From: Blautia sp.
GTDB lineage: Bacteria; Bacillota; Clostridia; Lachnospirales; Lachnospiraceae
DNA: 64,000 nt
Assembly: GCA_026169535.1 (NCBI GenBank)
Contig: JAPFCU010000076.1
Coordinates: forward strand, 1 to 64,000
Reading direction: 5' to 3'
In this document: piece by piece, positions 25,551 through 39,643 of the stretch
Layout of the letters: the number at the start of each line of letters is the position of its first letter
How positions within the stretch are numbered: position 1 is the first letter of the stretch
The notes under the pieces: generated by a model
What the model saw: the letters and a program-made list of their open reading frames with translations, nothing else
Database searches by the model: none
Told to the model about the DNA's origin: nothing
Position numbers and translations under genes: made by a program

Positions 25551-26633
25551 ATGAGCGGTATTAAAGATGTGGCAAAAAGGGCAGGAGTTTCGATTTCCAC
25601 AGTTTCCAATGTATTAAACAAATCGAAATATGTTAGTCCGGAACTGGTAAAGAAGGTAGAACAGGCAGTGAAAGAACTGTCTTATGAAGCAAATCCTATT
25701 GCACGAAGTATGAAAAATAATAAAACAGGGACAATTGGTGTGATCACCGAGGATATGTGTGGGGTTTTTTATCCTTATGTTGTGAGAGGAATCAATTCAG
25801 TGGCAGTAGAAAAGGGATACCAGATTGTAGTATGCGATGCGCAGGGTACATACGGAGACCGTCATGCGATCAAAAGGGAAAAAGAACTGTTCAGCCGTTT
25901 GATCGCAAATAGAGTAGATGGTATTATTTTTGCATCAACAGTATCCATTGAAAATAAAGAGAAATATATCGGTCAGATTAAAAAACTGGCAAATAAATAC
26001 AAGAAAATCCCCTTGGTAAGTATAGAAAGAGATTTTACCGATGTGGGAATTGATTCTGTTTATTTTGATGGTTATACAAATGCAAAGACAGCAGTAAGTC
26101 ATCTTATAAACTGCGGCTGCAAAAAAATCTGTCATATTTCAGGCCCTATGGAAATGGAGATTGTCAGGGAGCGAGTTATAGGATATAAAGCCTGTCTGGA
26201 GGAGAATCAGCTGTTTTTTGACGAAAGCAAGATGGTAATTCATGGAGATTACAGCCATCAGAGCGGGTATACGGTTATGAAACAGCTTATGATGCAGGTA
26301 CCGGATTTAGATGGTGTTTTTTGTGGGAACGATCAGATGGCTATTGGTGTGCTGAAGTTTTTAAAGGAAAACGGGAAACGTGTTCCGGAAGATGTGAAGG
26401 TTATCGGATATGATGATGTGTTTATTGCCAGTGTAGTAGAACCTGCTTTATCGTCTATCCATGTAAGAAAGCGTCATGCAGGAATAGAATCAGCCAGAAT
26501 GCTGTTCCAGAGAATTGAAAATTCTGATGAAGAAAGTATAAAACCAATAGGCATAAAAATGGATGCAAAGCTTGTAGTACGTCAGTCTACAGTAAGCAGT
26601 GCATCAGAAGACTGGAATTTGGTAGACTGGTAA
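25551..26633 (+). CDS. LacI-family regulator of the downstream sugar operon
   Basis: A 360-residue LacI-family regulator. Helix-turn-helix 'IKDVAKRAGVSISTVSNVLN', hinge 'PIARSMKNNKTGTIGVI', then a ribose-binding-protein-like effector domain ('VDGIIFAST', 'GVFCGNDQMAIGVLKFL', 'DDVFIASVVEPALSSI'). It is separated by a terminator from a 12 kb sugar-catabolic operon whose promoter region holds three AAAACGTTTT-type sites, the core bound by many LacI proteins. The effector is presumably the sugar imported by the operon's ABC system. Confidence 0.87.
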   Translation: MSGIKDVAKRAGVSISTVSNVLNKSKYVSPELVKKVEQAVKELSYEANPIARSMKNNKTGTIGVITEDMCGVFYPYVVRGINSVAVEKGYQIVVCDAQGTYGDRHAIKREKELFSRLIANRVDGIIFASTVSIENKEKYIGQIKKLANKYKKIPLVSIERDFTDVGIDSVYFDGYTNAKTAVSHLINCGCKKICHISGPMEMEIVRERVIGYKACLEENQLFFDESKMVIHGDYSHQSGYTVMKQLMMQVPDLDGVFCGNDQMAIGVLKFLKENGKRVPEDVKVIGYDDVFIASVVEPALSSIHVRKRHAGIESARMLFQRIENSDEESIKPIGIKMDAKLVVRQSTVSSASEDWNLVDW

Positions 26634-26663
26634 AAGAGAGGCGTAATTTGCCTCTCTTTTTTT
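26633..26663 (+). terminator. Terminator after the LacI regulator gene
   Basis: AAAGAGAGGC and GCCTCTCTTT with a seven-base loop and a run of T residues, starting at the stop codon. Confidence 0.92.
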
Positions 26664-26782: not shown

Positions 26783-26797
26783 GAAAAACGTTTAAAC
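26783..26797. promoter_or_regulatory. LacI-type operator 1 of the sugar operon
   Basis: GAAAAACGTTTAAAC, sharing the AAACGTTT core with sites at 26835 and 26948; it lies 34 bases upstream of the -35 box. Confidence 0.55.
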
Positions 26798-26830
26798 ATG
26801 CACAAAAAACGATTTTTTAAGGAAATATAA

Positions 26831-26859
26831 TTGACAAAAACGTTTTTCTGGATTATAGT
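26831..26859 (+). promoter_or_regulatory. SigmaA promoter of the sugar operon
   Basis: TTGACA at 26831-26836 and TATAGT at 26854-26859 with 17-base spacing. The start would be near 26866, leaving a leader of about 125 bases. Confidence 0.8.
26835..26848. promoter_or_regulatory. LacI-type operator 2, inside the promoter spacer
   Basis: CAAAAACGTTTTTC, a near-perfect palindrome overlapping the -35 box and the spacer, so bound repressor would exclude polymerase. Confidence 0.65.
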
Positions 26860-26892
26860 GTAATCACCTTGAACAACAAATATTTAAAATTT

Positions 26893-26939
26893 TAAATCCA
26901 TATAGTACAAATACACAAAAAATATGGATTTATTTTTTT
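26893..26939 (+). terminator. Terminator-like hairpin in the sugar operon leader
   Basis: AAATCCATAT (26893-26902) and ATATGGATTT (26922-26931), perfect ten-base arms, followed by ATTTTTTTA. It lies between the promoter and the first gene, so it could attenuate the operon. The stem is AT-rich and perhaps weak. Confidence 0.5.
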
Positions 26940-26947
26940 AAGACTTA

Positions 26948-26961
26948 GAAAAACGTTTTAC
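26948..26961. promoter_or_regulatory. LacI-type operator 3 of the sugar operon
   Basis: GAAAAACGTTTTAC, the third copy of the AAAACGTTTT core, about 80 bases downstream of the predicted start and before the ribosome binding site. Confidence 0.55.
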
Positions 26962-26989
26962 TAGAAAACGGAGAAAGAGAGGGAGACAG

Positions 26990-28204
26990 ATGGAACAGAA
27001 AAAGAGACTCTCGGAACAGGCAATGGAACAGGGCAGTGGGATTTTGAGGCTGGCACCTACATGGGTTCCCCGTTCTTTTTGCAGACCGGGTAAACGTATT
27101 AAGCTTCATCCCGATGATTATTTTATTCTCGGACAGAGAGGCGGAATCGATGAAAGATGGTTTTCCTCAACTACATGGGCTGAGAATGGCCCGGGAACTC
27201 CGGAAGACGAAGGGCTGAGTTATGTAGTTGTAGATGAAGAAGGAAAAGAAAAAGTTCTTTTGAGAGATGTGGTTGAACTTCTTGGATCAGAGGTGATTGG
27301 AGAAGCACTTTGGAATAAATATCATCGTTGGGCAATGTTTTCTAAATTTTTTGATAACGCAGGTCCTCTTCCGCATCATATTCATCATAGGACAGAACAT
27401 GCAGCCCGGGTAGGAGCATCTGGAAAACCGGAAATGTATTTCTTCCCATCTCAGATGAATAATCATGGCGGAGAATTTCCATTTACATTTTTTGGGTTTA
27501 ATCCGGAAACGACAAAGGAAGAGGTATTAGAAGCACTGAAAAAATTCACCAAAGGCGATAATCAGATTCTTTCCCTGGCAATGGCATATAAGCTGGATCT
27601 TGATACTGGATGGGATGTTCCTCCAGGAGTGATGCATGCACCAGGAAGTCTCTGTACATATGAACCTCAGTTTGCTTCCGATGTCTATGCAATGTATCAG
27701 TCCGTTTTAATGAACGGACAGATTGTGGGGGAAGATCTTCTCTGGAAAAATACTCCGGAAGAAGAAATTGGAAATTATGAATATCTTTTAGATGTAATTG
27801 ATTGGGAGCGAAATGTAGACCCTGATTTCCATAAAAATCGCTTTATGAAGCCAATTCCGGTAAGACCGTTGGAAGATATGATGGCAGACGGTTATATCGA
27901 GGAATGGATTTGTTATAAATGTGAAACTGTTTCAGCAAAGCGTCTTACGATTCTTCCGGGACGCAGCGTGACCATTAAAGACAATGCACCATATGGTCTG
28001 ATCTGTCTGGAAGGACATGGAAGTTTTGGAAAATGGCAGATCGAATCACCGGCACTGATCCGCTATGGTCAGCTGACACATGATGAATATTTTGTTACTG
28101 AAAAAGCAGCAAAAGAGGGTGTGGTAATCACCAACTCGTCTCTTACTGACCCGATCGTGATCCTGAAACATTTTTCAGAGAATCCTGATCTGGTGATCAA
28201 ATAA
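26990..28204 (+). CDS. Cupin / phosphomannose-isomerase-like protein, paralogue 1
   Basis: A 404-residue soluble protein of the cupin superfamily, with the look of type I mannose-6-phosphate isomerases. The metal site is probably formed by 'HIHHRTE' (HxHxxxE, about residue 130) and the His in 'PPGVMHAPGS' (about residue 215). A second cupin-like barrel near the C-terminus has 'LTILPGRSVTIKD' and 'GLICLEGHGSFG'. A paralogue lies at 33414-34718 in the same operon. In this setting it is most likely an aldose-ketose isomerase for a free pentose or a related sugar; that is inference, as I know no characterised close relative. First gene of the operon, AGAGAGGGAG ribosome binding site. Confidence 0.75.
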   Translation: MEQKKRLSEQAMEQGSGILRLAPTWVPRSFCRPGKRIKLHPDDYFILGQRGGIDERWFSSTTWAENGPGTPEDEGLSYVVVDEEGKEKVLLRDVVELLGSEVIGEALWNKYHRWAMFSKFFDNAGPLPHHIHHRTEHAARVGASGKPEMYFFPSQMNNHGGEFPFTFFGFNPETTKEEVLEALKKFTKGDNQILSLAMAYKLDLDTGWDVPPGVMHAPGSLCTYEPQFASDVYAMYQSVLMNGQIVGEDLLWKNTPEEEIGNYEYLLDVIDWERNVDPDFHKNRFMKPIPVRPLEDMMADGYIEEWICYKCETVSAKRLTILPGRSVTIKDNAPYGLICLEGHGSFGKWQIESPALIRYGQLTHDEYFVTEKAAKEGVVITNSSLTDPIVILKHFSENPDLVIK

Positions 28205-28228
28205 AAGAATTTAAAGGAGGAGAAAAAC

Positions 28229-29737
28229 TTGGCAGGTAAATATGTACTGGAAGCCACAGGAATCGCAAAATCTTTCTCCGGAGTAACCGTCCTGAACGGG
28301 GCAGAGCTTTGTATTGAACCAGGTGAGCTTCATGCTCTTATGGGAGAGAACGGAGCAGGAAAATCTACCCTTATGAAGATTATTATGGGAATTTACACAA
28401 AAGATGCAGGAAAAGTAGTACTGGATGGAAAAGAAGTTGAATTCAAATCCGCCAGAGATGCTCTTGATGCAGGAATTTCCATGATCCATCAGGAATTGAG
28501 TCCAATCCCGGAAATGACTGTTGCTGAGAATGTTTTTCTTGGCAGAGAACAGAAAAAGTTTAAAGGTTTACCGTTTGTAGATAAGAAGGAACTGAATGGA
28601 AAAACCCAGGAACTTCTGAAGGAATATGATCTGGATCAGTTTATCAGTCCAACTATGAAAATGAAGGATCTGAATATTGCACAGATTCAGATGATGGAAA
28701 TTATTAAAGCTGTTTCCTACAATTCCAAAGTAATTATTATGGATGAGCCGACTTCCTCTCTTTCGGAGAAGGAAACGGAAACCTTGTTCCGCATTATCGA
28801 CAGCCTTCGCAAAAAGAATGTAGGAATTATCTATATTTCTCATCGAATGGAAGAAGTTTTCCAGCTGGCAGATCGTGTTTCTGTTCTTCGTGACGGACAG
28901 TTTATCGGTTGTGTAAAAGTTGCTGAGGCATCCAGGGAACAGCTGATCAACATGATGGTAGGTCGTGAACTGGAAGGAGGCTATCCTCATAATACAGCCC
29001 AAAAAGGCGATGTTGTACTGGAACTGAAGAACTTTACCAGAAAAGGTGTTTTTGAAAATGTAAATCTCAAGGTTCATGCAGGAGAGATCCTTGGTATGGC
29101 TGGTTTGGTAGGTGCAGGACGAAGTGAGGTTATGAAAGCGCTGGTAGGATATGATCCGCTGGATTCCGGAGAAATATATCTGGAAGGACAGAAGATTACT
29201 ATTAAACATCCCAATGATGCGATCAAACATCATATTGTAATGGCATCTGAGGACAGAAAAGAGTTAGGTCTTGTCCTTTGCCGAAGCATCAAAGAGAACG
29301 TATCTCTCCAGAATTTTGACAAGCTTTCTAAAGGCTCCTTTATTCAGAAGCTAAAAGAGAGAAAGATGGCTGGTGAATATACAGAAAAGATGGCTACCAA
29401 AATGAATGGGATCGATGATCTGGTATCCAGTCTTTCTGGAGGAAATCAGCAAAAAGTAGTTCTTGCAAAGTGTCTGTTGTCAGAGCCAAAGGTACTGATC
29501 ATGGATGAGCCTACCAGAGGTATTGATGTAGGTGCAAAAGCTGCGATCTATAACATTATGGTGGGACTGGCAAAACAGGGAATTGCAATCATTATGATCT
29601 CCTCAGAAATGCCGGAGCTGATTGGAATGAGTGACAGGATCATAGTCATGTCAGGCGGTCAGGTCAAAGGTGAGCTTGAAGGAGCAGAAGCGCAGTCTCA
29701 GCAGACGATCATGAATTTAGCATTTGGAGGAGAATAA
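28229..29737 (+). CDS. Sugar ABC transporter ATPase, RbsA type (two ATPase domains)
   Basis: A 502-residue fused double ATPase of the ribose/xylose/galactose (CUT2) importer family. Domain 1 has Walker A 'GENGAGKST', signature 'LNIAQIQMMEI' and Walker B 'VIIMDEP'. Domain 2 has a degenerate Walker A 'GLVGAGRSEV', the signature 'LSGGNQQKV' and 'VLIMDEPTRGIDVG'. It powers the permease and binding protein encoded next. The start codon is TTG at 28229 with AAGGAGG eight bases ahead; no better start exists in the frame. Confidence 0.93.
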   Translation: MAGKYVLEATGIAKSFSGVTVLNGAELCIEPGELHALMGENGAGKSTLMKIIMGIYTKDAGKVVLDGKEVEFKSARDALDAGISMIHQELSPIPEMTVAENVFLGREQKKFKGLPFVDKKELNGKTQELLKEYDLDQFISPTMKMKDLNIAQIQMMEIIKAVSYNSKVIIMDEPTSSLSEKETETLFRIIDSLRKKNVGIIYISHRMEEVFQLADRVSVLRDGQFIGCVKVAEASREQLINMMVGRELEGGYPHNTAQKGDVVLELKNFTRKGVFENVNLKVHAGEILGMAGLVGAGRSEVMKALVGYDPLDSGEIYLEGQKITIKHPNDAIKHHIVMASEDRKELGLVLCRSIKENVSLQNFDKLSKGSFIQKLKERKMAGEYTEKMATKMNGIDDLVSSLSGGNQQKVVLAKCLLSEPKVLIMDEPTRGIDVGAKAAIYNIMVGLAKQGIAIIMISSEMPELIGMSDRIIVMSGGQVKGELEGAEAQSQQTIMNLAFGGE

Positions 29738-29738
29738 G

Positions 29739-30686
29739 ATGACACAGAAAAAAGATATGGGCAAGATTCTGAGACAGTTTGGTCTTGTGATAGTTGCTCT
29801 CATCATCATTGTTTTTATGAGTTTTACATCTGATGTGTTCCTGACAAGCCAGAACATCATCAATATTTTGAGGCAGATTTCTATTAACGGTATTCTTGCG
29901 GTTGGTATGACCTTTGTTATTCTGACTGGCGGAATCGACCTTTCTGTTGGTTCAGTAGTTGCTATTACAGGCGTTATTGTGGGATCTCTTTTAAAGGGAG
30001 GTACAAACTGGTTTATTGCAAGCCTTGCAGCTCTTGCTATTTCCATGGTGTGCGGCGCTATCAATGGATGGCTTATCGCCTATGTAGGATTCCAGCCGTT
30101 TATTGCAACTCTGTCAACTATGACCATCGGACGTGGATTTGCACAGGTTTACTCTAACGGAAAACCGTACATTATTTCAGATCCAAGTTTTAAAGTAATT
30201 GGCCAGGGATACTTTTTCGGAATACCGGTTCCCATTATCCTGCTTGTTATCTTCTGCGTTCTTGGCTTGGTAGTTCTGTCAATGACCACATTTGGACGTT
30301 ATGTATTTGCTATTGGTGGAAATAAGAGTGCAGCAAAACTTTCAGGTGTAAGAACTCAGAGAGTGCAGCTTATGGTTTATGTTTTGTCATCTATTTGTGC
30401 ATGGATGGTAGGTCTGATCCTGGCGGCTCGTATCAGTTCCGGACAGCCTACAGCAGGTGAATCTTATGAGATGGATGCGATTGCCGCAACTGCTATCGGC
30501 GGAACAAGTATGAATGGAGGGATTGGTTCTCTGACTGGTACAATCTGTGGTTTCGTAATCCTGGGACTTCTGCAGAACTCCATGAACCTTATGAATATCA
30601 ACTCTTTCTGGCAGCAGATCGTAAAAGGACTTCTGATCATTATTGCAGTATTCCTTGATATGAGAACAAAAGGAAAGAAGAATTAA
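29739..30686 (+). CDS. Sugar ABC transporter permease, RbsC type
   Basis: A 315-residue CUT2 permease with eight to ten membrane helices. Family motifs: 'GMTFVILTGGIDLSVGS' and 'GRYVFAIGGNKSAAKLSGV', then 'AATAIGGTSMNGGIGS'. The start at 29739 follows the ATPase stop by one base and has GGAGG eight bases ahead; an in-frame ATG 15 bases upstream overlaps the ATPase gene and is less likely. A single permease gene implies a homodimeric channel, normal for CUT2 systems. Confidence 0.94.
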   Translation: MTQKKDMGKILRQFGLVIVALIIIVFMSFTSDVFLTSQNIINILRQISINGILAVGMTFVILTGGIDLSVGSVVAITGVIVGSLLKGGTNWFIASLAALAISMVCGAINGWLIAYVGFQPFIATLSTMTIGRGFAQVYSNGKPYIISDPSFKVIGQGYFFGIPVPIILLVIFCVLGLVVLSMTTFGRYVFAIGGNKSAAKLSGVRTQRVQLMVYVLSSICAWMVGLILAARISSGQPTAGESYEMDAIAATAIGGTSMNGGIGSLTGTICGFVILGLLQNSMNLMNINSFWQQIVKGLLIIIAVFLDMRTKGKKN

Positions 30687-30758
30687 ACAAAAAATAAAGA
30701 ACTTTAATATCACGGAGATATTAAAAATAAGAAATTAAATTTTAAGGAGGAACAAAAA

Positions 30759-31787
30759 ATGAAGAAACAGATTATCAGTGGTTTATTAGCAGTATCTATG
30801 GTGGCATCTCTGGGAGCAGTGAATGTTGCAGCAGAGGGAAAAGACAATGCAGACATTAAGATTGGATTCTCTTCCAAAGACAACAGTGATGTTTTTGTTG
30901 CAAATATTGCTGATGCAGCAGAGGAAAGAGCAAAAGAACTGGGCGTAGAGCTTCTTATGTATGATGCAGGCGGAGACGTAAACAAACAGATCAGTGACTG
31001 TGAAACTCTTCTTGCAGCTGGTGTGGATGCTCTTGTGGTTATTCCTCAGAGTGTAGAAGGAAGTGCTCCTGTTGTAAGTATGGCAAATGATGCAGGTGTT
31101 CCGATCATCATTGATAATGGTGACATTGCTGACACAAATTATACTGCATTTGTAGGCTGTACAGATCAGGAGTCCGGTGAGCTGCTGGGTAAATGGTTTG
31201 TTGAAGAATCTGGTCTGAAAGAAGGCGATAAGGTTGCTATCATCGAAGGACCAATGGGACAGTCCGGACAGGTTGGACGTATGGCAGGATTTGAGGCTGT
31301 AGGAATGCTTGATTATTTTGATGTTGTTGCAACTCAGACTGCAAACTGGAAACGTGATGAAGCAATGGCACTTGCAGAAGACTGGATCACAACTTATGGC
31401 GAAGATCTGAAAGCGATCATCTGCGAGAACGATGATATGGGTATGGGAGCTCTTTCAGCAGCACAGGCAGCAGGAAGAGACGACATCATTATCGGTGGTG
31501 TAGATGGAATTGAAGATGCAGTACAGGCTGTTAAAGACGGTGTATATGGTGTAAGTGTTCTTCAGGACTCTGCAGGACAGGGAGCTACAGGTGTTGATGT
31601 TGCACTGGCAGCAGCAAAAGGTGAGGAATTTGAAAAGGATACAAGAATTCCATTCCGTCCGATCACAAAAGATAATGTTGATGCTTACCTTGAGGGCGGC
31701 GTAGAAGCTATCTCCGGTGATGATGCAGCAGAAGAGAAAACTGAAGAAGCAGCAGAGGAAACAGCAGAAGAGGAAGCTGCAGAATAA
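30759..31787 (+). CDS. Sugar ABC transporter substrate-binding protein, RbsB type, without lipobox
   Basis: A 342-residue periplasmic-binding-protein type I sugar receptor ('KIGFSSKDNSDVFVANIADA', 'DALVVIPQSVEGSAPVV', 'IICENDDMGMGALSA'). The signal peptide (about residues 1-25) ends in 'NVAAEG', a signal peptidase I site with no Cys, so the protein is not a lipoprotein as written. That is unusual in a Gram-positive. The C-terminus has an acidic Glu/Ala tail of about 22 residues. AAGGAGG precedes the start. A strong hairpin follows the gene and may stabilise its transcript. Confidence 0.92.
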   Translation: MKKQIISGLLAVSMVASLGAVNVAAEGKDNADIKIGFSSKDNSDVFVANIADAAEERAKELGVELLMYDAGGDVNKQISDCETLLAAGVDALVVIPQSVEGSAPVVSMANDAGVPIIIDNGDIADTNYTAFVGCTDQESGELLGKWFVEESGLKEGDKVAIIEGPMGQSGQVGRMAGFEAVGMLDYFDVVATQTANWKRDEAMALAEDWITTYGEDLKAIICENDDMGMGALSAAQAAGRDDIIIGGVDGIEDAVQAVKDGVYGVSVLQDSAGQGATGVDVALAAAKGEEFEKDTRIPFRPITKDNVDAYLEGGVEAISGDDAAEEKTEEAAEETAEEEAAE

Positions 31788-31823
31788 TTGACTGAAAATT
31801 GAGACTGGAATAACAGGAGCAAG

Positions 31824-31867
31824 GCACCGCTGGCAAAGAAATAATAGAAAGGACTTTGCGGCGGTGC
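31824..31867 (+). other. Intercistronic hairpin after the binding-protein gene
   Basis: GCACCGC-TG-GCAAAG and CTTTGC-G-GCGGTGC form a strong stem of 13 pairs around a 14-base loop. Only three T residues follow, so full termination is unlikely; protection of the upstream binding-protein mRNA, as in other sugar ABC operons, is more likely. Confidence 0.7.
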
Positions 31868-31923
31868 TTTGTGCGCTTAAAATCCGGAAAATCTCACCGG
31901 ATAATAGAGAAAGGAGATGCAAA

Positions 31924-32352
31924 ATGCTTAGAAATATACCTAAAATCCTTCCACCGGAACTTGTAAAGACCATGATGGAAATGGGGCATTCAGATGTATT
32001 GATTATTGCAGACGCTAATTTCCCGGGAACTGCACATGCAAAAAAGATGATTCGTATGGATGGAATCATGATTCCGGAGCTTCTTGAAGCAGTGCTGCAG
32101 TTGTTCCCGTTGGATAATTTTATTGATGATCCGGTACGTCTTATGAGAAACCTTCCTACAGAGCCGGTTCCAGAAATTTGGGAAACCTATCGTGAACTTT
32201 TGAAAAAATATGATAAAGACGACGCATTCCATGATTTTACATTTATTGACAGACTGCCATTTTATAAAACAGCAGAAGAAGCGTTTGTGATCGTTCAGAC
32301 AGGTGATGAATCCCGCTATGGAAACATCATTCTTCAGAAAGGAGTCTGCTGA
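31924..32352 (+). CDS. RbsD/FucU-family sugar mutarotase
   Basis: A 142-residue protein of the RbsD/FucU family, which interconverts anomers of free sugars such as ribose and L-fucose. Family features: 'LPPELVKTMMEMGHSDVLIIADANFP' at the N-terminus (catalytic His within 'MGHSD') and the C-terminal 'VIVQTGDESRYGNIILQKGV', closer to FucU than RbsD. AAAGGAG lies before ATG 31924; the frame stays open further upstream through the hairpin, without ribosome binding site. It indicates that the operon handles a free, unphosphorylated aldose. Confidence 0.9.
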   Translation: MLRNIPKILPPELVKTMMEMGHSDVLIIADANFPGTAHAKKMIRMDGIMIPELLEAVLQLFPLDNFIDDPVRLMRNLPTEPVPEIWETYRELLKKYDKDDAFHDFTFIDRLPFYKTAEEAFVIVQTGDESRYGNIILQKGVC

Positions 32353-32358
32353 GGGTCT

Positions 32359-33390
32359 ATGAATTATCAGGAAGAAAAAAAGTATATCGGAAACCGTGAC
32401 CAGCTTATTCGTGTGAAACGGCTCAAAATGCAGGAGGGAAAGGCTGCAGGCGTAGAAATGCTGGATGTACAGAACCGTTCAGGAATGCATTTTGACGTAA
32501 ATGTAAGCAGGGGAATGGATATCCCGTATCTGGATTTCTGTGGAGAGAATGTAGGGTTTATTTCCCCTTGTGGTGTGGTAGCTCCGGAATATTTTGATGA
32601 TAAGGAACTGGGATTTCTCAAAAGTTTTACAGCAGGTTTTCTTACAACATGCGGATTAAAGGTGGCAGGAGCTCCTTGTGAATATGAAGGAGCTGAATAT
32701 GGACTCCACGGCAATCTTTCTCATACTCCGGCAGAAGAAGTAAGTGCTGTGATTGAAGAAGGTGGAGATACACCATGTGCGGTAATTCGTGGAAAAATCC
32801 GCGATGCGGTGATTTTTGGCGACAAGATGTGTCTGGAGCGTGAAATAAGGTGCTTTTATAAAGAAAGAAAATTTACGCTCAGAGATAAGGTGACAAATGA
32901 AGGATATAAAAAAGTACGCCAGATGATTCTGTATCACTGCAATATTGGTTATCCAATTTTGAGTCCTGAAAGTGAAGTTTATATTCCTGCGCTGGAAACA
33001 AAGGCGCGTAATGCACATGCACAGGAAGGCATTGACAGCTGGATGAAGACGCAGATGGCTGATCCGAACTATGAGGAAATGTGTTATTACCACAAACTGA
33101 AGCCGGATGAAAAGAATCATTCCATAGCAGCAATCTACAACCCGGATCTTGAACTGGGGATTGCCATTGAGATCGATCTGAGTACACTGGATTATTTTGT
33201 ACAGTGGAAAATGATGGGAGCAGGGGATTATGTAATGGGTCTGGAACCTTCTAATTCAACCATTGACGGAATTAAAGATGCAGTGGATAACGGGTCTATG
33301 AAATATCTGAAACCTGGAGAAACCAGAGAATATAACCTTACATTCCATATTCTGAAAGGCAGAGAGGAATTTGAGGCAGTAAAACGATGA
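32359..33390 (+). CDS. DUF4432 aldose-1-epimerase-like protein
   Basis: A 343-residue protein of the galactose-mutarotase-like beta-sandwich superfamily, DUF4432 group. Visible landmarks are 'VNVSRGMDIPYLDFCGENVGF', quoted as VNVSRGMDI and FCGENVGF, 'EYGLHGNLSHTPAE' (His near the usual catalytic position), 'ILYHCNIGYPIL' and 'GLEPSNST'. Members are thought to be sugar epimerases of unknown substrate. It begins six bases after the FucU-like gene, so the operon encodes two different mutarotase-type enzymes. Confidence 0.82.
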   Translation: MNYQEEKKYIGNRDQLIRVKRLKMQEGKAAGVEMLDVQNRSGMHFDVNVSRGMDIPYLDFCGENVGFISPCGVVAPEYFDDKELGFLKSFTAGFLTTCGLKVAGAPCEYEGAEYGLHGNLSHTPAEEVSAVIEEGGDTPCAVIRGKIRDAVIFGDKMCLEREIRCFYKERKFTLRDKVTNEGYKKVRQMILYHCNIGYPILSPESEVYIPALETKARNAHAQEGIDSWMKTQMADPNYEEMCYYHKLKPDEKNHSIAAIYNPDLELGIAIEIDLSTLDYFVQWKMMGAGDYVMGLEPSNSTIDGIKDAVDNGSMKYLKPGETREYNLTFHILKGREEFEAVKR

Positions 33391-33413
33391 CAGAAATTTA
33401 AGGAGGCATAAAA

Positions 33414-34718
33414 ATGACAGAGAAAGAATTGATCATCAAGGCAGGCGAAGAACTGGATGCAAAGCTTGCAGAAGCAAAGAAAACAGGAAACCTTGTAGTT
33501 AAGGATGCAACTGAAGATGAAGGTGTGATCCGTTCTACATTTGAAAAAGGAGAAGGGATTTTCCGTTTGTTCCCGGCTTTTGTACCTAGAAGATTTGGAA
33601 AAGCAGGACGCAGATTGAAACTTCATCCAGATGATTATTTCGCATTTGGTATGGCAAGAGGATCCATTACTGAGAGATGGTTTGCATCTACCATTGCGGC
33701 ACAGAATGGTGAAACAGCAAAAGCGGATGAAGGTATGGCTTATGTTTGCGTAGATTATAACAGTGATGAAAAGTTTTCTTTAAGAGATGCAGTAAAAGTT
33801 TTAGGAGAAGAACTTGTAGGTAAGGAATTAATGGAGAAATACAATGGATGGCCAATGTATTCTAAGTTCTTTGATAATGAGAACCCTCTGTTCCATCATC
33901 TGCACCTTACATTTGAAGATGCTGCGCGTGTAGGAAAGCTTGGAAAACCGGAGTGCTATTATTTTCCAAAACAGCTGAATAACTATTTTGGTGAAGCAAA
34001 TTATACATATTTTGGATTTGACCCGGATGTGGATCCAGAGGAAATCAAAGACAGAATCCGTAACTTTAAGGATGATGATACGAGAATTACAGACCTTTCC
34101 AGAGCATACAGGATCGAACTTGGAACCGGCTGGTACACACCGGCAGGCGTGATCCATGCACCGGCTTCTGTTCTGACTTATGAGCCTCAGTGGAATTCAG
34201 ATGTAAACTCTGTTTATGAGAATATTGTTTCTGGAGAAGTTTATCCGCCGGAAATGTTGGATGAGGAACTTCCTGAAGGTCAGAAGGATGTTGAGGATGT
34301 ATTTAAGCTTCTTGACTGGGATAAAAATGTGGATCCTCATTACAGAAAACACTATTTCCGCAAACCGATCGTAGAAACTGAGACTGAGCAGTATGTACAG
34401 AAATGGATCACATATGCAAATCCATATATTGCCGCAAAAGAACTGACTGTAAATCCAGGTCAGACAGTAACTATCAGTGACGGTGCTGCATATGGATGTA
34501 TTTTTGTTCAGGGCCATGGAAAATTTGGTGTTTATGATGCAGAAGCTCCGACACTGCTTCATTTTGGACAGCAGAGCACAGATGAATTCTTTGTATCTGA
34601 GCAGGCATCTGTAAAAGGAGTGACTATTACAAATACAAGTCAGGTTGAGCCTCTTGTTGTACTGAAGCATTTTGGACCAAATTGCCCGGGTGTACCGCAG
34701 GAAGTGCCGGAAAATTAA
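33414..34718 (+). CDS. Cupin / phosphomannose-isomerase-like protein, paralogue 2
   Basis: A 434-residue paralogue of the cupin at 26990-28204. Shared landmarks in the same order include 'RLKLHPDDYFAFG' (first: RIKLHPDDYFILG), 'MYSKFFDN', 'HLHLTFE' (HxHxxxE), 'ARVG-GKPE', 'GVIHAP' and the C-terminal 'VLKHF'. It has about 25 extra residues at the N-terminus and an acidic insertion around residue 285. The metal ligands look intact in both copies, so neither is obviously a dead subunit. Isomerase activity on a free sugar is inferred. AAGGAGG ribosome binding site. Confidence 0.75.
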   Translation: MTEKELIIKAGEELDAKLAEAKKTGNLVVKDATEDEGVIRSTFEKGEGIFRLFPAFVPRRFGKAGRRLKLHPDDYFAFGMARGSITERWFASTIAAQNGETAKADEGMAYVCVDYNSDEKFSLRDAVKVLGEELVGKELMEKYNGWPMYSKFFDNENPLFHHLHLTFEDAARVGKLGKPECYYFPKQLNNYFGEANYTYFGFDPDVDPEEIKDRIRNFKDDDTRITDLSRAYRIELGTGWYTPAGVIHAPASVLTYEPQWNSDVNSVYENIVSGEVYPPEMLDEELPEGQKDVEDVFKLLDWDKNVDPHYRKHYFRKPIVETETEQYVQKWITYANPYIAAKELTVNPGQTVTISDGAAYGCIFVQGHGKFGVYDAEAPTLLHFGQQSTDEFFVSEQASVKGVTITNTSQVEPLVVLKHFGPNCPGVPQEVPEN

Positions 34719-34766
34719 GAGCAGCGTCAAATGAGGTTCCTGTACAGGTAATGTCATTTTGAAAAA

Positions 34767-34806
34767 ACAGCCCGGGATACCAGGAAAATCATGTATTCCG
34801 GGCTGT
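34767..34806 (+). other. Intercistronic hairpin before the L-xylulose kinase gene
   Basis: ACAGCCCGG-G-ATAC and GTAT-T-CCGGGCTGT make 13 pairs with one mismatch around a 14-base loop. Only a short T-rich stretch (CTTTAT) follows. It may act as a partial terminator or mRNA end-stabiliser within the operon. Confidence 0.65.
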
Positions 34807-34827
34807 CTTTATCATCGGGAGGAAAAT

Positions 34828-36342
34828 ATGAAATATTTAGTAGGAATAGATAATGGAGGAACCTTTTCAAAAGCAGCTATTTTTGATGAAGAGGGAAATC
34901 AGATCTCTGTTGCCAGTGTTCCGACAGAGACGTTGACTCCAAAACCAGGATATACAGAAAAAGATCTGGACGAACTGTGGGAGGTTAATGCACAGGCAGT
35001 TCGCAAGGCAGTGGAAAAAAGCGGAATCGATCCGTCAGATATTGCCGGAGTTTCTTTTTCTGGTGCAGGAAAAGGTCTTTATATGATCGGTTATGATGGA
35101 AGACCGTCCTATCACGGAATCATGTCTACAGATACAAGAGCCTGGGCGCAGGTGGAAAAATGGTATCAGGATGGAACCAATAAAAAAGTTTACGAAAAAA
35201 CTTTCCAGGAAATTCTTGCTGTACAGCCAGTAAGTCTCCTTGCCTGGTTCCGTGATAACCAGCCGGAGGTTCTGGAGCGCACAAAATATATTTTTGCAGT
35301 AAAAGATTATATTCGCTACATGCTTACAGGAGAGGCATACAGCGAGTATACAGACTGCTCTGGAGGCAATCTTGTAAATATGGTCACAAAACAGCATGAC
35401 AGAGAACTGATGGCGCTTTATGGTCTGGAGGACTGTTATGAAAAGCTTCCGCCTTTGAAGTACTCTGCGGAAATTTGTGGGTATGTGACAAAAGAGGCCA
35501 GTGAAAAAACTCTGCTTCCGGAAGGAACACCTGTTGCAGCAGGAATGTTCGATGTAAATGCCTGTGGTATTGCATCCGGTCTTTCTGATGAAGAACAGAT
35601 GTGTATGATCGCCGGAACCTGGAGCATCAATGAATTTATCGGAAAAGCACCGGTTACCAATGGTACGGTTGCACTAAACTCTATGTTCTGCATGCCAGGA
35701 TATTTTCTTATTGAGGAGAGCAGTCCTACATCTGCCGGAAACATGGAATGGTTTATCCGTAATCTGATGAATTACGAAAAAGAAGAAGCCAAAGCAAATG
35801 GCGGTTCTGTATATGACATCACAAATGAGTGGGTTGCTTCTATTGAACCTCAGGACAGCAATATTATATTTCTGCCGTTTTTGAACGGTTCAAATGAAGC
35901 TGCATTGGCTAAAGGAACTTTTGTGGGTCTGACTGCTTACCACAGCAAAAAACATATGCTCCGTGCCGTATATGAGGGAATTGTCTTTTCACATGTCACA
36001 CATGTAAAGAAACTTTTAAGAAACAGAGAAGTACCAAAGAGCATCCGGCTTTCCGGAGGTGCAGCAAATTCCGACGTATGGATACAGATCTTTGCGGATG
36101 CGCTGCAGATTCCTATCGATGTAATCGCAGATAAAGAGCTTGGTGCACAGGGAGCAGCTATGGCGGCAGGTATTGCGGCAGGTATTTATAAGGATTACCA
36201 GGAAGCGATCAGCAGAACGGTGACAATTACAAAGACCATCAATCCGCGTCCGGAATATAAAGAAATTTATGAAGAAAAATATGCAACTTATCGTGCTGTA
36301 ATCGATGGATTAAGCAGTGCGTGGGAGCATTTCAAAAATTAA
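34828..36342 (+). CDS. lyxK: FGGY-family L-xylulose kinase (LyxK-like)
   Basis: A 504-residue FGGY sugar kinase. ATP-binding landmarks are 'VGIDNGGTFSKAAIFD' and the C-terminal 'LSGGAANSDVWIQIFAD'. Several stretches match E. coli LyxK as I recall it rather than XylB or AraB: 'GKGLYMI', 'PVSLLAWF', 'SAEICGYVT', 'GTPVAAGMFDV', 'EESSPTSAGNMEWF' and 'EGIVFSHVTHVKKL'. LyxK phosphorylates L-xylulose to L-xylulose-5-phosphate, the substrate of the UlaE-type 3-epimerase encoded downstream. GGGAGG lies before ATG 34828; an upstream in-frame ATG at 34759 would run through the hairpin and is rejected. Confidence 0.85.
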   Translation: MKYLVGIDNGGTFSKAAIFDEEGNQISVASVPTETLTPKPGYTEKDLDELWEVNAQAVRKAVEKSGIDPSDIAGVSFSGAGKGLYMIGYDGRPSYHGIMSTDTRAWAQVEKWYQDGTNKKVYEKTFQEILAVQPVSLLAWFRDNQPEVLERTKYIFAVKDYIRYMLTGEAYSEYTDCSGGNLVNMVTKQHDRELMALYGLEDCYEKLPPLKYSAEICGYVTKEASEKTLLPEGTPVAAGMFDVNACGIASGLSDEEQMCMIAGTWSINEFIGKAPVTNGTVALNSMFCMPGYFLIEESSPTSAGNMEWFIRNLMNYEKEEAKANGGSVYDITNEWVASIEPQDSNIIFLPFLNGSNEAALAKGTFVGLTAYHSKKHMLRAVYEGIVFSHVTHVKKLLRNREVPKSIRLSGGAANSDVWIQIFADALQIPIDVIADKELGAQGAAMAAGIAAGIYKDYQEAISRTVTITKTINPRPEYKEIYEEKYATYRAVIDGLSSAWEHFKN

Positions 36343-36369
36343 ATCAAGAGAGAAAGAGAGGAAATAATT

Positions 36370-37341
36370 ATGTTTAAAATGGCAATCTTAGGAGCTGGAG
36401 CAATCGCTCATAAAATGTCCGCTACTATTCGCGGTTTGGAAGAGGTAGAACCTTATATTATCTGTGACACAACTATTGAAAAGGCAGAAGCTCTGGCAAA
36501 AGAGTACGGCTACACAAAAGTATGCAGTTCATATGAAGATATTTTGGCAGACGATGAAGTTGATCTGGTGTATATCGCTGTGCCGCATTCTCTTCACTAT
36601 AAGTTTACAAAGATTATGCTGGAAGGGGGGAAAAATGTTCTCTGTGAAAAATCTTTTACAGTCAATGCGGATCAGGCAAAAGAGATTCTTGCATTGGCGG
36701 AGGAGAAAAAGCTTCTCCTTCAGGAAGCAATCTGGACCAGGTATATGCCGTCCAGAAAGATTATTGATGATGTTCTTAAAAGTGGTGTGATTGGTGAGGT
36801 GACCTCTATTGATGCAAATCTTGGATATGAGTTAAGTGCAGTTCCGAGAATCTGGGATGTGAATTTTGCCGGTGGAGCTCTTCTTGATGTAGGAGTTTAT
36901 CTGATTCATTTTGCACGTATGATTTTTGGAGATAATATTACTGATATTAATACATCTGCGGTATTTAAAAATGGAGTAGATATGATTGATATGATTAATC
37001 TGACTTTTGATGATAATAAGATGGCTACACTGCAGAGCAATGTCCATGCAGCGCAAAATCGTACAGCATCAATTTTTGGAACAAAAGGATATATCGAGAT
37101 TACAAATATCAACAATCCGGAAAAAATAAAAGTGTTTAATGATCAGTACGAAGAAATTGCTTCTTATGATGTTCCGGAACAGATCACTGGTTATGAGTAC
37201 GAAGTTTTGGCATGTATGCGTGCACTGAAAAATGGAGAAATTGAATGCCCGGAAGCCCCGCACAGTGAGACTATCAAGGTTATGGAGACTATGGACAGTA
37301 TCCGCAGATCCTGGGGATATGAGATTCCACTGATTGGTTAA
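36370..37341 (+). CDS. Gfo/Idh/MocA-family oxidoreductase
   Basis: A 323-residue NAD(P)-dependent dehydrogenase. The N-terminal Rossmann fold has 'AILGAGAIAHKMS', and the family motif appears as 'NVLCEKSFTVN' (EKP-type Lys, with Ser replacing Pro). The C-terminal domain has 'GGALLDVGVYLIHFARMIFG' with the usual Asp and His. It resembles xylose/dihydrodiol dehydrogenase types. It may oxidise or epimerise a sugar of this pathway; which one is unknown. It stands between kinase and 3-epimerase genes with 27- and 10-base gaps. Confidence 0.87.
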   Translation: MFKMAILGAGAIAHKMSATIRGLEEVEPYIICDTTIEKAEALAKEYGYTKVCSSYEDILADDEVDLVYIAVPHSLHYKFTKIMLEGGKNVLCEKSFTVNADQAKEILALAEEKKLLLQEAIWTRYMPSRKIIDDVLKSGVIGEVTSIDANLGYELSAVPRIWDVNFAGGALLDVGVYLIHFARMIFGDNITDINTSAVFKNGVDMIDMINLTFDDNKMATLQSNVHAAQNRTASIFGTKGYIEITNINNPEKIKVFNDQYEEIASYDVPEQITGYEYEVLACMRALKNGEIECPEAPHSETIKVMETMDSIRRSWGYEIPLIG

Positions 37342-37351
37342 GGAGCAGCCT

Positions 37352-38197
37352 ATGAAAGCATATACATTGGGGCTGTATGAAAAGGCCATGCCAAAGGAAT
37401 TAAACTGGAAAGAAAAACTGGAAACAGCAAAGGCTACAGGTTATGATTTTGTAGAAATCAGTATTGATGAGACAGATGAGAAGCTTGCACGCCTTGACTG
37501 GAGTAAAGAGGAACGTCGGGAACTGGTAGACCTGATGTATCAGATTGGAGTCCCTATTCGCACCATGTGTCTCAGCGGTCATAGAAAGTATCCCATTGGA
37601 AGCAATGATCCAAAGATATGTGCAAGAGGAATGGAAATTATGGAAAAAGCGATTCAGCTTGCAGATGATCTTGGAATTCGAATTATACAGCTTGCAGGAT
37701 ATGATGTTTATTATGAAGAATCTACATCGGAAACAGTACAGAGGTTTGGGGAAAATCTGAAAAAATGTGAAAGAATGGCAGCCAGGGCTGGAATTGTTTT
37801 GGGTTTTGAGACAATGGAAACAGAGTTTATGAACACTGTGGAAAAGGCCATGAGATATGTAAACAAAATTGACTCTCCTTATCTTGGGGTTTATCCGGAC
37901 ATGGGAAATATTACAAATGCTGCAAAAGAATATGGCACGGATGTACTGGAAGACATCAGAACGGGCACAGGACATCTGGATGCGGTACATTTAAAGGAAA
38001 CAGTACCGGGAGTGTTCCGGGAGGTGCGCTTTGGAACAGGACATGTGGATTTTCCGTCTGTGATCCATGAAACCTGGAAAGCAGGTGTACGCAGATATGT
38101 AACAGAATTCTGGTATACGGGAGATCCTGAATGGAAAAAGGATCTGGATTTCGCAGTAGGAATGATGCGTCCTCTTCTGGATGCGCAGGAAGCATAA
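37352..38197 (+). CDS. L-ribulose-5-phosphate 3-epimerase (UlaE/SgbU type)
   Basis: A 281-residue TIM-barrel enzyme that interconverts L-xylulose-5-phosphate and L-ribulose-5-phosphate. It follows E. coli UlaE/SgbU closely: 'LGLYEKAMP', 'YDFVEISIDETDEKLARLDW', 'MCLSGHRKYPIGS', 'RIIQLAGYDVYYEE' and 'VHLKETVPGVFREVRFGTG'. Metal ligands expected in the family (Glu, Asp, His, Glu) are present. AGGAG lies before ATG 37352; an in-frame ATG at 37334 overlaps the previous gene's end and has no ribosome binding site. Confidence 0.92.
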   Translation: MKAYTLGLYEKAMPKELNWKEKLETAKATGYDFVEISIDETDEKLARLDWSKEERRELVDLMYQIGVPIRTMCLSGHRKYPIGSNDPKICARGMEIMEKAIQLADDLGIRIIQLAGYDVYYEESTSETVQRFGENLKKCERMAARAGIVLGFETMETEFMNTVEKAMRYVNKIDSPYLGVYPDMGNITNAAKEYGTDVLEDIRTGTGHLDAVHLKETVPGVFREVRFGTGHVDFPSVIHETWKAGVRRYVTEFWYTGDPEWKKDLDFAVGMMRPLLDAQEA

Positions 38198-38259
38198 TGA
38201 GCAGAAGTGCTTTTTGAAAAATACCTTGGCTTATGGAGCAGATAAGTATATACTATAGA

Positions 38260-38304
38260 TAGCGCCGAGTTGCTTCTTTGTATACCGACGCTAGGGTGTT
38301 TTTT
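38260..38304 (+). other. Hairpin with T-run before the 4-epimerase gene
   Basis: TAGCG-C-CG and CG-A-CGCTA pair around an 18-base loop, followed by GGGTGTTTTTT. It is a possible partial terminator in the 139-base gap between the two epimerase genes. Confidence 0.55.
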
Positions 38305-38336
38305 GAGAAAAGTTTATAATAAGAGGAGAGAGAACT

Positions 38337-39032
38337 ATGCTGGAGAAATTAAAAGAGGAAGTTTACAAAGCAAACATGGATCTTCCTAAATATGGTCTTG
38401 TAACTTTTACCTGGGGAAATGTAAGCGGGATTGACAGAGAAAAAGGTTTGTTTGTCATCAAACCAAGTGGCGTGGATTATGATAAACTGACTCCGGAAGA
38501 TATGGTGGTAGTAGATCTGCAGGGAAATAAAGTGGAGGGAAAATATAATCCTTCTTCTGATACGGCTACCCATGTTGTCCTTTATAATGCGTTCCCAAAT
38601 ATAGGAGGTATTGTTCATACACATTCTTCATGGGCAACAAGCTGGGCACAGGCAGGCAGAGGAATCCCTTGTTATGGAACAACACATGCCGATTATATCT
38701 ATGGAGAAGTTCCTTGTGTGCGTAATCTTACAAAGGAAGAAATCGAAGAAGCATATGAGAAAAATACAGGTGTTCTCATTGCAGATTATTTTAAGGACAA
38801 AGATTATGAGGCTGTCCCCGCAGTTCTCTGCAAGAATCATGGACCATTTACCTGGGGAAAAGATGCTCATGAGGCAGTACATAATGCGGTTGTTCTGGAA
38901 GAGGTTGCAAAAATGGCGACTCGTTGTGAACAGATCAATCCGCAGGTAAAACCAGCTCCGCAGGAGCTTCAGGATAAGCATTATTACAGAAAACATGGGG
39001 CAAATGCTTATTATGGACAGAATACAAAATAA
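38337..39032 (+). CDS. L-ribulose-5-phosphate 4-epimerase (AraD/UlaF type)
   Basis: A 231-residue class II aldolase-fold enzyme converting L-ribulose-5-phosphate to D-xylulose-5-phosphate, the entry to the pentose phosphate pathway. Motifs: '[11 protein letters not shown]', '[11 protein letters not shown]', '[12 protein letters not shown]', zinc ligands in '[11 protein letters not shown]' and 'NHGPFTWG', and the C-terminal '[14 protein letters not shown]' typical of AraD. It completes the pathway from the L-xylulose kinase. A terminator follows at once, so it is the operon's last gene. Confidence 0.94.
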
Positions 39033-39142: not shown

Positions 39143-39643
39143 TTATTCTGGAAGTGTATACGGAAAGTTTGGTGCTTCCGGACAATTCAAAAAGTCTTTA
39201 AGACAATTGATAATAAATTCATGATCGGCAACGTGATACAGATTAGAAGAAATGATAGCTCCGATTGCCGTACTGTTTCCTTTGATACGGATAGGAAAAC
39301 CGCCGCCGCATAAAGCATAGTCAGAGGTGGAAAGGGCATGAGTGTCCAGAGTATCCCCATCTTTTTCGAAGGTCAGGGCAGAAAGAAGAGAGCTTCTCTC
39401 CATAAGTTTTACAGTGTTGAATTTTCGTTCCATCCATTTCTGGTTTAAGAGATTAGTCCCGTCAGGACAATGCTGGAATAAGATACAGCCATTATTCATA
39501 CGTATAGATACTGCAATGGTAATACTATTTTTTTGAGCATAATCCACCATAAAGGTACCAAGCTTATAGGCTGTGTTATGATCGAAATGAGTAAACTGAA
39601 GAAGTTCTTCCTGTTTTTTGAGAATATTGAGAGTTTCTGCCAT
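39143..39643 (-). CDS. Heme-degrading-domain / GlcG-HbpS family protein
   Basis: A 166-residue protein of the GlcG/HbpS-like fold, in the group annotated as heme-degrading domain (UPF0303-like). Landmarks: 'IAVSIRMNNGCILFQHC' and 'LCGGGFPIRIKG'. Members occur beside sugar and dicarboxylate catabolic genes with no settled function. It converges on the sugar operon and has its own AAGGAGG. Whether it belongs to the same pathway is unknown. Confidence 0.75.
   Translation of the reverse strand: MAETLNILKKQEELLQFTHFDHNTAYKLGTFMVDYAQKNSITIAVSIRMNNGCILFQHCPDGTNLLNQKWMERKFNTVKLMERSSLLSALTFEKDGDTLDTHALSTSDYALCGGGFPIRIKGNSTAIGAIISSNLYHVADHEFIINCLKDFLNCPEAPNFPYTLPE

Follow-up and report, generated by a model that had tools for sequence, protein, structure and literature searches.

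In Escherichia coli, L-lyxose is used through a route that combines RhaA (L-rhamnose isomerase) and LyxK with SgbU and SgbE. RhaA acts on free sugar and interconverts L-lyxose and L-xylulose, and the RhaT protein of E. coli is annotated as a rhamnose/lyxose symporter. Judging from titles, a 1994 study by Sanchez reportedly dealt with L-xylulose kinase and L-lyxose, while Granstrom is said in 2005 to have used RhaA to make both L-lyxose and L-xylose. The kinase, 3-epimerase and 4-epimerase families of this route are shared by an operon of Blautia sp. that lies in a stretch of 64,000 nucleotides (contig JAPFCU010000076.1, positions 1 to 64,000; hereafter the window). In place of RhaA, this operon has two cupin proteins of predicted phosphomannose isomerase (PMI) fold, CUP1 and CUP2, together with a CUT2 importer, FucU and a DUF4432 protein. 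It also differs from the E. coli route in forming one LacI-preceded operon, in which no SgbH decarboxylase or 2,3-diketogulonate importer was seen.

On balance, this operon probably serves for the uptake and use of a rare L-aldopentose in free form, by means of its cupins, a LyxK-like kinase, UlaE and AraD. We infer the following route from the genes and conserved residues observed, from the fold predicted, and from the linkage, common operators and slot replacement described below. LacI would repress the operon and the CUT2 importer would take up the pentose, whose anomers FucU and the DUF4432 protein would balance. CUP1 and CUP2, as metal-dependent PMI-fold enzymes, would then convert the free aldose to L-xylulose, which the LyxK-like kinase would turn into L-xylulose-5-phosphate. 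UlaE would yield L-ribulose-5-phosphate, and AraD would yield D-xylulose-5-phosphate for the pentose phosphate pathway. The substrate is most likely L-lyxose, since some sister loci have L-rhamnose isomerase where the cupins would otherwise stand; L-xylose would come second, and CUP1 and CUP2 may divide the two C2 epimers between them.

The operon and its L-xylulose module

All operon genes named in the original prediction are present on the + strand (26990-39032), in the order CUP1, CUT2 importer (three genes), FucU, DUF4432, CUP2, LyxK-like kinase, Gfo/Idh, UlaE and AraD. The proposed L-xylulose kinase, of the FGGY family (34828..36342), matches E. coli LyxK at 34% identity and 332 bits, and XylB at 24% and 110 bits. 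Of five E. coli FGGY references placed in one tree with it, with long branches among them, LyxK is nearest (93/88); in a PDB sequence search of the kinase, an AI-2 kinase headed the list, in which no entry bore the name L-xylulose kinase. Both epimerases lie above their NCBIfam cut-offs. The UlaE/SgbU-type pentulose-5-phosphate 3-epimerase (37352..38197) scores 370 bits with PRK13210 (cut-off 200) and is 46% identical to SgbU, and the AraD/SgbE-type L-ribulose-5-phosphate 4-epimerase (38337..39032) scores 391 bits with TIGR00760 (cut-off 389) and is 57% identical to SgbE. Kinase, 3-epimerase and 4-epimerase are thereby united as a module from L-xylulose to D-xylulose-5-phosphate. In Konateibacter massiliensis (L091; compared loci carry L numbers), the same operon continues past AraD into a transaldolase and a split transketolase, the exit expected of a pentose route. 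In L164 (1860-3872), the kinase frame continues into a D-2-hydroxyacid dehydrogenase-like part, as a fusion or a frame run-on.

The remaining operon genes, also on the + strand, are those of the importer, a mutarotase, the DUF4432 protein and an oxidoreductase. The importer comprises an RbsA-like ATPase (28229..29737), named by eye from its reading frame and sequence and with homologues beside cupins, an RbsC-like permease (29724..30686), also named by eye and 87% identical to its copy in L088, and an RbsB-like binding protein (30759..31787), for which RbsB is the best NCBIfam model at 132 bits (cut-off 337). The FucU/RbsD-type mutarotase (31924..32352) matches Pfam RbsD_FucU and reaches 106 bits with the L-fucose mutarotase model (cut-off 141). 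It is followed by the DUF4432 protein (32359..33390; Pfam DUF4432, 319 bits), which presumably has an aldose 1-epimerase-like role. A Gfo/Idh/MocA oxidoreductase (36370..37341), identified by Pfam, is probably auxiliary.

As had been predicted, no aldose isomerase gene was seen in the operon, but this does not extend to the genome, where homologues of AraA and FucI are present on other contigs. The usual products of AraA and FucI are not L-xylulose. XylA, AraA or FucI as a ketose source inside the operon was rejected, none being seen there. RhaA was not found in the genome with a model that matched in 3 of 14 control genomes; the genome is 89.75% complete, so this absence is not final. A search without a positive control gave no match to E. 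coli XylA in the genome, and a genome search for PF07385 or L-ribose isomerase by their own models was not made. When the operon was examined as an L-rhamnose-type operon, neither rhamnulose-1-phosphate aldolase nor RhaA was found in it. An ascorbate/diketogulonate (ula/yia) operon was also rejected, as no 3-keto-L-gulonate-6-phosphate decarboxylase or acid importer was seen in the operon. The nearest genome match to the decarboxylase, 28% identical, is an OMPdecase/HUMPS-family gene beside a SIS-domain gene (C26:66862). Beyond the window, L215 (853-5198) holds in a row YiaL-family, LacI-like, PfkB-like, OMPdecase/HUMPS-family (26% to SgbH), SIS-domain and KDPG-aldolase-like genes, the LacI, PfkB and aldolase names being given by eye.

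Shared control elements also tie these genes together. The 10-mer palindrome AAAACGTTTT, a putative LacI-type operator, occurs twice in the window against 0.14 copies expected, and both copies (26837..26846 and 26950..26959) lie between lacI and CUP1. As with the second copy, several related loci have this 10-mer ahead of the corresponding genes. Overall, the palindrome is found in 7 of 12 related loci with a LyxK-type kinase and a cupin (L054, L055, L061, L062, L064, L088, L089). In L055 it precedes CUP1 and again the kinase-UlaE-LacI unit, and in L089 it precedes CUP1 and the importer unit; given this shared placement, the importer and mutarotase genes of near relatives are apparently controlled together with those for the cupins, the kinase and UlaE, as a single regulon. 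The LacI-family regulator (25551..26633, + strand; Pfam LacI and Peripla_BP_3) is the probable repressor, and copies 57-70% identical adjoin the same gene set in L054, L055, L064, L088 and L089. Its gene is followed by a terminator-like hairpin (26632..26660, + strand) with a 12-pair stem and then a T run. The first operator copy falls in the spacer of a promoter-like site upstream of CUP1, TTGACA-17-TATAGT (26831..26859, + strand), named from an 11/12 consensus match only; such sites number 39 in the region against 36.2 in shuffles, and this one is among the two best.

Downstream of the operon, on the - strand, lies a gene for an HbpS/GlcG-like protein (39143..39643; Pfam HbpS-like), possibly an accessory. 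Such a gene recurs within the L091 operon, beside the kinase in L199 and one gene from CUP1 in L058.

CUP1 and CUP2 and their linkage to the kinase

CUP1 (404 amino acids; 26990..28204) and its paralogue CUP2 (434 amino acids; 33414..34718), the proposed aldose isomerases, are 47% identical to each other. Neither gave a Pfam or NCBIfam match at E 0.001, so that the curated PMI models recognise neither, and relaxing Pfam to E 10 produced nothing but two sub-threshold chance matches for CUP2. The predicted model of CUP1, however, has the class I PMI two-cupin fold of ManA, to which it is 13-16% identical by structure alignment. A single-sequence search with the cupins found no PMI match; a profile search did recover PMI. 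In class I PMI, the metal ligands are Gln, His, Glu and His, accompanied by a catalytic Lys. Of the PMI metal and catalytic set, the cupins keep His, Glu, His and two Lys, and His replaces Gln; residues H130, H132, K146, E148 and H216 are kept in 86 of 86 alignment rows. CUP2 carries the metal residues of CUP1 by sequence comparison, the fold having been modelled for CUP1. CUP1 and CUP2 most likely belong to a branch of the PMI superfamily that had no name before.

Relatives of these cupins are widespread. A genome scan found at least 575 candidate stretches that encode one, and the 80 named loci kept from it include, by their titles, Firmicutes, Bacteroidota, Spirochaetes, Planctomycetes and Lentisphaerae. 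Among the open-licence PMC papers listed in literature searches, none dealt with these cupins in the use of sugars, which is not proof of novelty.

Gene content was compared by tblastn in 115 loci, namely these 80 and 35 around homologues (L029, L054-L087). For the latter, 34 homologue places were fetched, with few of the weak matches (from about E 1e-4 upwards) among them; in L084-L087, the homologues are no nearer than distant PMI-like proteins. A kinase scoring at least 300 bits to that of the window is present in 12 of the 115 (L054, L055, L061, L062, L064, L088, L089, L091, L123, L126, L161, L164). Among these 12, UlaE is found in ten, with L061 and L164 stopping at contig edges, and CUT2 in eleven. 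Among named relatives of the operon, the nearest belongs to a metagenome-assembled genome of Candidatus Blautia excrementipullorum (L088; CUP1 91%, kinase 94%), which makes a Blautia-like host within the Lachnospiraceae probable. Both cupins occur in five of the 12 loci, CUP2 only in three (L061, L062, L064) and CUP1 only in four (L123, L126, L161, L164; Spirochaetes and Family XIII). The idea that the two cupins act as a pair is not borne out by this distribution: because loci of both single-cupin kinds exist, one cupin of either type seems to be enough.

This linkage appears in several parts of the cupin family. The cupin tree kept 86 of 119 rows (11 of the 44 Gfo/TIM rows), with matches below 150 bits excluded, and rows from LyxK-type loci occupy four positions, one in the CUP2 clade, one among Lachnospiraceae CUP1, one in Family XIII and one in Spirochaetes. 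The LyxK+UlaE label changes nine times, at least four of them forced by well-supported branches, with gain and loss indistinguishable. Among 299 genomes of the window's family, an adjacent kinase (at least 60%) is found in 6 of 6 with a CUP2-type cupin; the rest have the kinase in 8 of 293 cases (Fisher p = 3e-9, uncorrected for kinship). CUP2-type here means at least 67% identity to CUP2, a cut picked after the contexts were known; relatives at 48-54%, mostly of the DhaK kind, were uncounted. Both linkage and operator counts exceed chance, and a chance gathering of unrelated genes is rejected on their account.

The isomerase slot and competing explanations

The same type of kinase also occurs without a cupin. 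Of 20 such places 16 were fetched, and G251, G038:C8, G104:523944 and G238 were left out of the 26 kinase places. UlaE is present in 12 of the 16 loci and RhaA in three, two of which (L242, L243) have it on the same strand a few genes from the kinase. Other loci have RhaM (L230, L234), RhaS-like binding proteins under the RhaS model cut-off (L230, L233, L234), a GH78 rhamnosidase about 4 kb from the kinase (L229) or a Zn-alcohol dehydrogenase accompanying it (L239-L241). In the cupin sample, RhaA is found in 0 of 115 loci and RhaM in one; with E. coli XylA, AraA, FucI and RhaA as queries, the sole match of at least 60 bits was FucI in L071 (80 bits). The RhaM exception (L055/L245) carries on one strand importer-RhaS-like-RhaM and then kinase-UlaE-LacI-CUP1-importer-FucU-DUF4432-CUP2. 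Kinases from cupin loci and rhamnose-type loci interleave in one clade of the kinase tree, which suggests repeated swapping of the front end. With RhaA in cupin-less kinase loci and the lyxose link of RhaA and RhaT, the cupins would occupy the slot held by RhaA in some sister loci, ahead of the L-xylulose module. The proposal that the cupins make L-xylulose is strengthened by their metal residues, fold, linkage to LyxK and UlaE, and the presence of RhaA in the same slot, with catalysis itself inferred. In a separate sample, L200 combines kinase, UlaE, AraD, a YiaL-like gene and an MFS transporter (by eye) without a cupin. L199 (6261-10476) holds Gfo/Idh, HbpS, a kinase 74-75% identical and LacI, with no cupin and no importer.

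A second wiring has the same requirement. L078 and L079 are arranged as LacI-CUT2-CUP1-TIM barrel-AraB-AraD, L078 with an Fe-ADH family gene (AraM-like by eye) before AraD. Their TIM barrel shares 26-27% identity with another for which D-psicose 3-epimerase is the best NCBIfam model, at a score below the cut-off. This route can be read as running from L-xylulose to L-ribulose, L-ribulose-5-phosphate and D-xylulose-5-phosphate, the 3-epimerase acting ahead of the kinase. A C3 epimerase is required in either wiring, in keeping with a cupin whose product is L-xylulose rather than L-ribulose.

Elsewhere, cupin relatives have other partners. Seven loci (L029, L063, L066, L067, L069, L070, L071) combine one with a DhaK-type kinase (DhaK or DhaK/DhaL), and in three of these (L066, L067, L070) RpiB and a 3-epimerase-like TIM barrel are also present. 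For example, L029, on an Arthrobacter plasmid, holds CUT2, a dihydroxyacetone-kinase-family protein, RpiB- and triose-phosphate-isomerase-like genes, an alcohol dehydrogenase and a cupin. Such loci look like tetrulose routes, or putative tetrose operons, with the cupin in the aldose isomerase position. In 36 of the 80 named loci, DUF4432, a 345-aa TIM barrel and Gfo/Idh occur together, as a Bacteroidota/Planctomycetes cassette (e.g. L118, L121, L128, L132, L145); 32 of the 36 also have a protein cluster of which two tested members are PF06439 (3-keto-disaccharide hydrolase, formerly DUF1080). The cassette Gfo/Idh is near the levoglucosan dehydrogenase model (341 bits, cut-off 650), and a cytochrome c protein is often present. 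CUP1-type cupins are also next to or near GHL6/alpha-L-fucosidase-like genes (L094, L096, L098, L099, L102-L106, L108, L142, L146, L159, L059, L060), and GH95 proteins are near CUP1 in L054 and L059. Of the 119 cupin rows, 44 are labelled Gfo/TIM cassette and 15 GHL6. LarA-type (lactate racemase family) genes lie near a CUP1-type cupin in L074, L077 and L107. In L138 (2069-9684), an importer is followed by adjacent CUP1- and CUP2-like genes, and no FGGY kinase was found in the locus.

Vitamin C breakdown leaves L-lyxose, L-xylose and L-threose. A tentative extension, which we hold to be possible rather than probable, is that the branch forms a general toolkit of free-aldose isomerases. Each sub-branch would work with a back end of its own: LyxK/UlaE/AraD or 3-epimerase/AraB/AraD for L-pentoses, DhaK/RpiB for tetroses, and the Gfo/TIM-barrel cassette. 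These enzymes might serve gut salvage of the three sugars from vitamin C breakdown; a literature search on this link gave nothing relevant among the papers listed.

Several observations weigh against the L-aldopentose route proposed for the window. The 34% identity to LyxK does not fix the specificity of the kinase for L-xylulose, and a 2011 survey places LyxK only in some Gammaproteobacteria (PMC3245297). The operator 10-mer is not in five of the 12 kinase and cupin loci (L091, L123, L126, L161, L164), and it does occur, mostly as a single copy, in eight cupin loci without a LyxK-type kinase. In L232, other genes, one on the opposite strand, separate RhaA from the kinase, and 6 of the 16 cupin-less loci (L231, L235, L236, L237, L238, L244) have none of the RhaA, RhaM, RhaS-like, GH78 or Zn-alcohol dehydrogenase front ends. 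CUP1 relatives in the Bacteroidota/Planctomycetes cassettes are mostly 62-66% identical, and no cassette locus among the 115 has a LyxK-type kinase of at least 300 bits. Cupin relatives beside GHL6/alpha-L-fucosidase-like, GH95 or GH38 genes point to other substrates. L-lyxose alone accounts for neither the Gfo/TIM nor the GHL6 cassettes, so either the family has further specificities or too narrow a substrate has been assumed. The window also has FucU where RhaM-type loci have RhaM, so its aldose may differ from L-lyxose, a sugar without an obvious natural source in the gut.

The strongest rival, although an unlikely one, is a kit for an L-rhamnose- or L-fucose-like 6-deoxyhexose or an L-hexose, in which a rhamnulokinase-like kinase would follow isomerisation of a deoxyhexose by the cupins. 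RhaA, RhaM, the RhaS-like proteins (below the RhaS cut-off) and the GH78 rhamnosidase near kinases 44-81% identical to the window's all suit it, as do the RhaM flanking one cupin locus and the GH95 and GHL6 genes beside some cupins. However, UlaE and AraD exceed the cut-offs for pentulose-5-phosphate epimerases, which to our knowledge take no part in the catabolism of L-rhamnose; the operon showed no aldolase of RhaD or FucA type, and one operon terminates in transaldolase and transketolase. Closer to the proposed route, and counted within it, is the somewhat doubtful variant in which the aldose is L-xylose, with the same downstream steps. The presence of FucU instead of RhaM, here and in L054, L055, L088, L089 and L091, suggests that the substrate may differ from that of RhaA/RhaM loci, and a split of the C2 epimers between the cupins would agree with this; yet RhaA itself has reportedly served for both L-lyxose and L-xylose, so a separate enzyme is not required.

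Formation of L-xylulose from a polyol through oxidation by Gfo/Idh was the alternative in the original prediction; with xylitol or L-arabinitol as the polyol and the cupins as accessories, it is now disfavoured as quite improbable. It draws on L199, with kinase, HbpS and Gfo/Idh but no cupin, and on the Zn-alcohol dehydrogenases of L239-L241. Close copies of the Gfo/Idh are nonetheless present in only 3 of the 12 other kinase and cupin loci (L054, L088, L091; L089 ends before its possible place), the importer and mutarotase-type genes imply an aldose, and the polyol-type loci use a different dehydrogenase family. In the least probable reading, the cupins would isomerise a phosphorylated intermediate, as genuine sugar-phosphate isomerases like PMI, which their class I PMI fold and conserved PMI residues might suggest: the operon has one kinase, of the ketose-5-phosphate-forming type, no aldose kinase was seen, and the slot is held in some sister loci by RhaA, a free-sugar enzyme.

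Comparison with known systems

If a rare L-aldopentose is indeed used in the proposed way, a gap in pentose metabolism would be filled by an enzyme family that has no Pfam or NCBIfam name, and a substrate prediction would become available for a large set of unnamed genes. It would also provide a further case of unrelated enzymes for one step, a PMI-fold cupin and RhaA, and could supply isomerases useful for rare L-sugar production.

Three further systems resemble parts of this one. Class I PMI (ManA) shares the two-cupin fold, the His/Glu metal motif and two lysines, but the cupins differ from it in their low identity, the His in place of a ligand Gln, the lack of a curated PMI match and their free-sugar operon context. 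The cupin D-lyxose isomerase (PF07385) and L-ribose isomerase do isomerise free pentoses and are shorter, single-cupin proteins; neither CUP1 nor CUP2 has a Pfam match to PF07385. Tetritol and erythrulose pathways, with their DhaK-type kinase and RpiB-type isomerase, are like the cupin-relative loci that hold DhaK and RpiB, including the three with a 3-epimerase-like TIM barrel. These loci differ in having a cupin where a free tetrose isomerase is needed, and we know of no such cupin in the described pathways. Set beside these systems, the window operon has the known L-xylulose module, to which enzymes from a hitherto unnamed part of the PMI superfamily most likely supply the ketose.

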